Positions 42,075 to 43,735 of a stretch of 64,000 bases of DNA are shown one piece after another. The DNA is from Pseudonocardiales bacterium (lineage in GTDB: Bacteria > Actinomycetota > Actinomycetes > Mycobacteriales > Pseudonocardiaceae): positions 41,872-105,871 of the forward strand of contig JAHEXI010000007.1 in the NCBI GenBank assembly GCA_023252195.1. Reading direction: 5' to 3'. Numbering within the stretch: the stretch's first letter is position 1; each line of letters starts with the position of its first letter. The notes under the pieces are model-generated. The model did not search any database and had not been told where the DNA came from. It worked only from the letters and a program-made list of their open reading frames with translations. Made by a program: the position numbers and the translations under genes.

Positions 42075-42378
42075 CTTCTGGGATCTCCGCGCCGCAGCGG
42101 GTGCACATGACGGGTGGGTCCAGATCGGCGAGCAGGCCGCATTCCGGGCAGACTCGAGGTAGCCAGCAGGCCGGGTCACCACCCTCGTCGGCTGGCGGTT
42201 CGGGTTTGGGTGCGGTCACGGGACTGCTCCAACACTTCGGCTGCGGACGGATTGGCGGCAATACGTGGCGGCGCAGTCGCTCGACACGCGACAGCCAGAC
42301 AGCAAGATAGTGGCGTCCAGCAGAGTGGTGTACGGCAGGCCCGGTGATGGGCGTGGTGTCGACGTGTAGGGCGGTCAT
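42064..42378 (-). CDS. Small hypothetical protein with C-terminal zinc ribbon
   Basis: CPECGLLADLDPPVMCTRCGAEIPEVTP. Confidence 0.5.
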   Translation of the reverse strand: MTALHVDTTPITGPAVHHSAGRHYLAVWLSRVERLRRHVLPPIRPQPKCWSSPVTAPKPEPPADEGGDPACWLPRVCPECGLLADLDPPVMCTRCGAEIPEVTP

Positions 42379-42430
42379 CGCGTGATCCTTCTGAAGACCT
42401 TCCACAGTGCTTCTCAAGGAGACCCTCGCG

Positions 42431-42586
42431 ATGACCGCACCGTCGAGTATCGACCCTGCCCGGTTTCTGCACGCGCAGCTGGCGTCCGCGTCGCCGGACT
42501 TGCTGCGTTCGATGCTGTCTACGTTTATCAACACGTTGATGTCGGCTGAGGCCGATGCGATCTGCGGCGCGCCCTACGGTGAGTCG
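42431..42586 (+). pseudogene. IS256-family (IS1081-like) transposase N-terminal remnant
   Basis: MTAPSSIDPARFLHAQLASASPDLLRSMLSTFINTLMSAEADAICGAPYGE then truncated. Confidence 0.75.
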
Positions 42587-42687
42587 AGCCTCGCCTGTGC
42601 TGGCTAATCTGTTCCTGCACTATGCTTTCGATTCGTGGATGGCCCGGGAATATCCGGCCGTTGCGTTCGAGCGTTACGTGGATGACG

Positions 42688-43110
42688 GTGTGCCAAGAAC
42701 GCTGAAGGAGGTTCCGATGTAGACGGAATGCTTTGGATGCGGTGCTGCACTGGTGATGGAGGTAGGCCCTCCGGGACCGCCCACGCAGGGGGAGGTCTCA
42801 AACCACCGCAAGCTGCGTCGGTGAATGAGCCGGGGTGGTGAGCGTTGCGGAAAAGGCGCACGTGATGCGTCAGGTGTGAGCCGAGAAGGCGAACGTTGCG
42901 CTGGGCCATGCGCAAATACAAACGGTTGCGCCGACGCGAGAAGCGGGCGGGCGAGTTGATGGCGGGAGCCTCCCGGCGATCCCCACGACTGTTCGCGCAC
43001 TGGCGCTTCGGCCTCAAACCTGGTGGCTGGACGATGGGAGCCGTGTAAGCCGAGAGGTTTAAGCACGGTTCTGAGAGCGCCGGGGGGTGGGATTCCCCCC
43101 GGCGACTCGC
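42688..43110 (+). mobile_element. Inner group II intron remnant inserted in the outer intron's RT ORF
   Basis: Splits YVDDG from VVHCVSE; contains maturase tail YKRLRRREKRAGELMAGASRRSPRLFAHWRFGLKPGGWTMGAV* and domain V at 43038-43072. Confidence 0.65.
43038..43072 (+). ncRNA. Group II intron domain V (inner)
   Basis: gagccgtgtaagccgagaggtttaagcacggttct; AGC triad, GAGA tetraloop, pairing arms. Confidence 0.75.
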
Positions 43111-43593
43111 TCGGTGGTGCACTGCGTCAGCGAGACAGGACGGGAAACGTCGCGGCTCATACGAGCACACGGCGTTCACCTTTCTTGGTTTCACGTTCCG
43201 GCAGCGCAGGGCGCGGGACAAGCAGGGAAGGAACTTCAGTAATTTCCTGCCCGCGATCAGTAAGGATGCCCTGAATAGAATCAGTGCGGAGGTGCGGTCC
43301 TGGCGGCTGCATCGCCGTACTGGCTGCACCTTCAACGACCTCGCACGGCGCATCAATCCGATCGTGGCCGGGTGGATGCACTATTACGGGGCGTTCTACC
43401 GCTCCGCATTGTATCCGCTCTTGTCGCGTATCAACGCCTACTTGGTGGGCTGGGTCCGCAAGAAGTACAAACGGCTGCGAAGCAAGAAGAAGCCCGCGAG
43501 TGCTGGCAGGGGATCACCGGCAGGTATCCCCGGATGTTCGCGCACTGGAGATGGGTCGCTTCGGTCCAGCGCGTCTGACGACCAGGGTGACAA

Positions 43594-43628
43594 GAGCCGT
43601 ATGAACCGAGAGGTTCACGTACGGATCT
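43594..43628 (+). ncRNA. Group II intron domain V (outer)
   Basis: gagccgtatgaaccgagaggttcacgtacggatct; AGC triad and paired arms. Confidence 0.8.
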
Positions 43629-43682
43629 GCGGGAGCCGGGAGGTGAAAGTCCTCCCGGCCACCCGACCCCCGGCGACTCACC

Positions 43683-43715
43683 TGCCTCCGGCGACACATA
43701 TTGTCGCCGGAGGCA
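43683..43715 (-). terminator. Hairpin downstream of argS
   Basis: tgcctccggcgaca - catat - tgtcgccggaggca: 14-bp perfect stem, 5-nt loop. Confidence 0.65.
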
Positions 43716-43735
43716 CACAAACCGTGATCAACGAC

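Follow-up and report, generated by a model that had tools for sequence, protein, structure and literature searches.

How did one group II intron come to lie within the reverse transcriptase (RT) gene of another, exactly at the codons of the RT active site? This question is raised by an element in the window, i.e., the analysed stretch of 64,000 nucleotides from a Pseudonocardiales bacterium. The element comprises the following features.

42310..42586, + strand: 5' end fragment of an IS256-type (Mutator family) transposase, reading frame from 42410, adjoining the outer remnant
42590..42687, + strand: piece of the outer intron's RT, reaching one base beyond YVDD (similarity to uninterrupted relatives)
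42688..43111, + strand: inner group II intron with an internal deletion, 424 nt (GTGTG 5' end, Rfam D1D4-2 and domains V/VI, empty site in L055)
42758..42875, + strand: inner D1D4-2 element, part of domain I (RF01999, 98.2 bits)
42896..43048, + strand: C-terminal remnant (maturase tail) of the inner intron-encoded protein (IEP), an open frame ending in FAHWRFGLKPGGWTMGAV and a stop codon, aligned to L102
43036..43111, + strand: inner domains V-VI (RF00029, 53.0 bits)
43112..43591, + strand: outer RT/maturase frame, resumed, with about 92-96 nt deleted at about 43134 (L055 alignment)
43592..43667, + strand: outer domains V-VI (RF00029, 58.6 bits)

Nesting and decay of the window element

The outer intron occupies 42590-42687 and 43112-43667. 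Its RT frame, which runs up to SPVLANLFLHYAFDSWMAREYPAVAFERYVDD (...FERYVDD), is broken at 42688, one base into the next codon, by GTGTGCC, a sequence of the group II 5' end type, and picks up again as VVHCVSE 3' of the insert. The first-pass annotation had rightly placed the start of foreign sequence at 42688 and recognised the resumption of the frame, but put the latter at about 43113 while L055 gives 43112. The 5' exon of the inner intron ends with the outer piece at 42687, such that IBS2 is TACGT and IBS1 is GATGACG.

The empty site is provided by L055. In a local alignment, its positions 1464-1560 correspond to window 42591-42687 and its positions 1561-1582 to 43112-43133 (22/22), with nothing between; past 43133 the match continues by a jump to L055 position 1679. 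The same flanks are joined in L057 (one base unaligned), and both are also matched by the uninterrupted relatives L008, L009, L011 and L013. Identity of 42590-42687 to uninterrupted L008, L011, L013, L053 and L055 is 80-86%. Since the flanks are adjacent in L055, and since the 5' motif and the Rfam end of domain VI yield the same ends, the insert comprises 42688-43111. No target base is lost or duplicated across it; judged from the alignments, the junctions are as clean as expected of group II retrohoming. The inner sequence has the marks of a group II intron, i.e., domains V/VI, a GUGYG-type 5' end and an exact 3' end after domain VI.

An intact form is found in L102, an Actinomycetota contig with the window's outer RT type (FERYADD followed by AVVHCVTERQARY), where the site is occupied by an inner intron of full length. 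This inner intron has 1,987 nt and an open frame of 431 aa, and by its sequence L102 is the undeleted counterpart of the window twintron. The empty sites of L055 and L057 and the nested form of L102 thus bear out the earlier claim of one group II intron inside the RT ORF of another. The whole region 42309-43728 is missing from a genome of the same genus (G005, L033), which has 13 nt between the flanks at that place.

The window copy itself is strongly reduced. Its inner intron is deleted from about 42895 to the maturase tail, which removed the remainder of D1 with EBS2 and EBS1, both D2 and D3, and almost the entire RT. Domains V-VI are kept, as is the C-terminal end of the IEP; a complete ribozyme (D1-D3) and an RT were not found in the inner intron. 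The outer intron lost its 5' half upstream of the RT position at 42590, where the IS256-type fragment now stands, as well as the ~92-96 nt after VVHCVSE at about 43134; its remaining piece still contains a GIIM maturase domain (E = 1.9e-17, within 43139-43567). A complete ribozyme can be formed by neither intron, which makes the window copy a relic. It no longer has what splicing and mobility require, so sequential splicing would not be expected of the deleted copy. Consequently, the label "twintron-like" of the first-pass annotation holds for the history of the element but not for its present capacities. Several of its other observations agree with ours: the insert carries its own maturase tail (ELMAGASRRSPRLFAHWRFGLKPGGWTMGAV before the stop), both domain V hairpins are matched by Rfam (43036-43111 and 43592-43667), and both ORFs are deleted, with losses wider than it had stated. 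The adjoining IS256 5' fragment is present as well, but its Transposase_mut match (E = 0.0011) is under the curated Pfam cut-off. A second partial copy of 42310-42356 is located at G000:C37:51428-51474. Next to argS, just 3' of the outer intron, we note a palindromic repeat (43683-43734) with many copies in the window's genome and in genomes of the same genus.

Recurrence of the insertion site

What the first-pass annotation missed is that the insertion site coincides with the active-site motif YADD, at which the lineage of the inner intron is aimed. The window insertion fits TAY GYN GAY GAY plus 1 nt on the sense strand (TACGTGGATGACG followed by GTGTGCC). Using the junction as a query against 394 genomes of the window's family, two further genomes were found with relatives of the inner intron after TACGCCGACGAC plus 1 nt, where the interrupted frames read LTRYADD (L059) and LIRYADD (L058).

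A scan of ~85,000 genomes for YADD codons joined to an intron 5' end (pattern TAYGYNGAYGAYNGTGYGNCNMGARCG) returned 38 loci compared to 1.0-1.6 expected by chance (264 Gb, both strands). They span about nine phyla-level labels (Actinobacteria, Acidobacteria, Planctomycetes, Proteobacteria, Desulfuromonadales, Nitrospira, Methylomirabilota, Chloroflexi, Bacillota). Of the 38 loci, 34 have Rfam's D1D4-2 3' of the junction. In three others, the sequence at that point is masked or of insufficient length, and the last (L109), being without intron homology, was rejected as a member of the lineage and counts as the match that chance would be expected to give. Upstream of the junction, RVT_1 is detected in 20/31 scanned stretches, and several shorter stretches end in recognisable RT sequence, e.g., GNWRLIRYADD. 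The host introns match Rfam D1D4-3, -4, -6 and -7 as well as D1D4-2. When the insert is removed, the RT frame is restored, for shift 0 only, in all nine RT loci with both junctions (L078, L081, L082, L086, L095, L099, L102, L105, L108). For instance, L095 then reads RYADD directly joined to LVLGFQNRADAERFLEEF, and L081, L095, L105 and L108 show open frames of 479-561 aa. L105 is from Rhodovibrio sodomensis DSM 9895.

Six copies were found without selecting on the site, and all six sit at the YADD motif of an RT. These are L113 and L123, found in genomes by the EBS pattern (the genome of L123 was already known to carry a lineage copy), L134 on a viral contig, whose target reads RHADD, and L135, L143 and L145, found on plasmids by similarity, with L145 residing on pSymA of Sinorhizobium meliloti ml59. 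Three further copies interrupt non-RT genes at codons that spell YADD, namely genes for Peptidase_S15 (L077), zf-UBP (L088) and a MutS_V-like protein (L111, weak match). Recognition is thus one of nucleotides, and most victims are RT genes since this spelling is common in them.

The lineage is sparse, given that the EBS pattern occurs in only 2 of 398 genomes drawn from the phylum, and almost no members were found in phage and viral collections. Introns related to it are present on many rhizobial plasmids. The 5' part of the window's inner intron (up to about 42895) shows ~94% identity to L110, with 97% over 132 nt, and this latter identity suggests a recent transfer between actinomycetes. L110 (399-608, aligned to window 42688-42894) is a copy of Actinocrinis puniceicyclus in the YADD codons of a different RT class.

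Some observations were made alongside. In L143 (Candidatus Megaera plasmid pPCS201), the gene annotated as 'reverse transcriptase, interruption-C' is the host RT resumed after an intron of the YADD lineage. A Wolbachia phage record contains a partial match to the lineage. At the contig end of L083 (2050-2175), the 5' end of a second D1D4-2 intron directly follows the 3' end of the first, which may be a tandem copy or the assembly of an intron circle. Related introns of E. coli (65-73% identity) were found, and two were examined: one lies beside a CbtA-type toxin-antitoxin locus, the other in an ISAs1 transposase.

Guide pairing, possible self-avoidance and lineage history

Aligned 5' regions of the lineage share a conserved GTCGAAAGCGTA and a hairpin (AAACCG...AGTYGTT...CGGG) whose loop carries AGTYGTT or TGTCGTT. 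The guides of the lineage are accordingly EBS2 = GCGTA and EBS1 = AGTYGTT, rarely TGTCGTT. GCGTA pairs with TAYGC and AGTCGTT with GAYGAYT, i.e., the paired target consists of the Tyr-Ala-Asp-Asp codons and the base that follows them. EBS2 is GCGTA in 22/22 resolved cases. Over the 12 pairing positions, each case has 8-11 Watson-Crick pairs, 1-4 G-U pairs and 0-1 mismatch; EBS1 was fixed by a regular expression for this count and was free in the alignments of the 5' regions. The targets of the 22 cases use TAC (15), TAT (6) and CAC (1), all four Ala codons, and both GAT and GAC in either Asp codon. A G of the EBS stands opposite every synonymous C/T of the Tyr and Asp codons, and neither pairing includes position 3 of the Ala codon, so that every synonymous spelling of YADD is predicted to be bindable.

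The intact relatives L058, L059 and L102 carry GCGTA and AGTYGTT in the region that is deleted in the window copy. Since its own EBS sites are lost, the window copy is assigned to the lineage by sequence similarity and by its site. Counting against guided homing at this locus, the window target is YVDD, whose IBS2 (TACGT) can match GCGTA only if a G-U pair is allowed at the end.

Introns that are related but sit elsewhere carry different guides. We initially expected the same-genus relatives to sit at YADD as well, which was rejected: L002, L004, L014, L015, L017, L018 and L019 are located elsewhere. Among these, the ones with a readable EBS differ in it from the lineage and were used as controls. 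Eight relatives at other sites show different EBS sequences, and for 7/8 the EBS fits the last 6 nt of its own exon better than the average of other loops; the exception is L015, where the fit to the own exon is not clearly better. Within the window's genome, L004 (G000:C46:72556-72765, minus strand) is a second nested case, i.e., a D1D4-2 intron in the ribozyme part of another intron (CCTGGCGGGAGCCCGCTTACTGGCCAGGTGG before and GTGTGTCACG after the junction). Its EBS1 fits this exon.

For each member with readable IEP, we compared the pairing of its own EBS with its own RT motif and with its target. The own motif forms fewer Watson-Crick pairs in 13/13 members, a part of which is expected as targets are ascertained by having been hit, and has more mismatches in 12/13. 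In 7 of the 13, the own motif is FADD or YCDD. These variants are found in 7/16 lineage IEPs versus 3/25 other D1D4-2 IEPs (Fisher p = 0.03, relatedness ignored). From this we infer that weak pairing of the own motif may guard against self-insertion.

A tree of IEPs (49 rows) shows strong clustering of the lineage (5 changes versus 13.6 in shuffles) but no single clade, and the starred branches force at least 4 changes. YADD specificity may thus be ancestral, with losses or retargeting, or may have been gained repeatedly. Two scanned IEPs have RVT_1 and GIIM and no endonuclease.

Competing explanations and known systems

Taken together, we consider it highly probable that the window element is a decayed twintron that arose by site-specific retrohoming of one group II intron into the YxDD codons that encode the RT active site of a second. 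Here, a D1D4-2-type lineage with EBS2 GCGTA and EBS1 AGTYGTT would aim at the YADD codons of RT genes and insert by reverse splicing of its RNP, possibly at the replication fork as RmInt1 does. Intact members presumably splice in vivo, and once the inner intron is spliced out, the RT of the host intron would be restored. In the window copy, later deletions would have destroyed both partners.

Viewed in isolation, the window demands nothing more than a single chance landing in the ORF of another intron without any preference for RT motifs, followed by decay of both, and several same-genus relatives of the inner intron do sit at other sites, including L004 in a ribozyme part. Such an accident is contradicted by the recurrence of the site, i.e., by 38 same-site loci where 1.0-1.6 are expected, by the near-identical inner 5' part of L110 at the YADD of a different RT class, and by the complementarity of the EBS to YADD codons; we regard it as very unlikely. 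Site choice could also depend on the RT genes themselves rather than on EBS pairing, given that nearly all insertions are in RT genes and that both inner and outer intron carry one. Yet the insertions in the Peptidase_S15, zf-UBP and MutS_V-like genes have only YADD codons in common, the outer RTs belong to very different classes, and the EBS changes with the exon in relatives, which leaves this explanation extremely unlikely.

Finally, two independent adjacent introns or a fusion by deletion might mimic nesting. Deletions in both introns and the adjoining IS fragment show that rearrangement did happen here. Nevertheless, the outer RT runs across the insert without a base lost or duplicated, as in L055, L102 is an intact nested form, and where two adjacent introns could have been seen, the uninterrupted relatives show directly joined flanks. 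The empty sites rule out the adjacent-intron or recombination model, and we give it practically no credence. Retrohoming into the active-site codons remains our reading of the locus.

Twintrons are known in Euglena. Nested introns are also described for Trichodesmium, with sequential splicing shown (PMC4649490), and for Porphyridium (PMC4476101); the portions of these accounts considered here cover few loci and report no recurring RT-motif target. Closer to our case are the introns of Methanosarcina acetivorans that home repeatedly and site-specifically into other group II introns (Dai & Zimmerly 2003, summarised in PMC4424553 and PMC2882425). Compared by summaries, they form arrays of up to five introns in one archaeon; for the YADD lineage, we show where it inserts, how this site is recognised and that it is spread across phyla. 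The M. acetivorans genome contains D1D4-2 introns. In Thermosynechococcus elongatus, the ORF-less TeI3 lies in TeI4 between two start codons (ATGs) of the outer ORF, as summarised in PMC2882425. There too, one intron family evolved insertion at a conserved site of another, but for one outer family in one organism, in contrast to the active-site codons of many RT classes found here. Group IIC introns specific for attC sites or terminators likewise have a lineage-wide target motif in many hosts (summary in PMC4424553), but this motif is a DNA hairpin, whereas the YADD lineage reads the coding sequence of its rivals by EBS pairing.

With an IEP of about 430 aa that has RT and maturase and no endonuclease, the YADD lineage resembles, by description, the endonuclease-less RmInt1-like (class D) introns, and we presume that it belongs to class D. 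RmInt1 is described to reverse splice at the replication fork (PMC8914252).

Neither a YADD-directed lineage nor a codon-tolerant guide is described in the literature searched, a search that the original 2003 Methanosarcina account falls outside of. That is, nested homing is already known, while the YADD target and the codon-tolerant guide appear to be new, with Methanosarcina as the main risk to novelty.

On balance, we favour, with some reserve, the wider picture of an old cross-phylum lineage that preys on group II introns via their YADD codons, with a guide that reads the motif in any spelling and an own RT motif (FADD, YCDD or weakly pairing codons) that would confer self-immunity. If true, the catalytic signature of competitors serves as a universal landing site, which would be a clear instance of parasite-on-parasite targeting in bacteria. 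It would also provide a natural design rule, i.e., G at wobble positions aims a group II intron at a protein motif instead of a single DNA sequence, and it may account for recurring twintrons and for host-intron RT genes whose break falls exactly at YADD.
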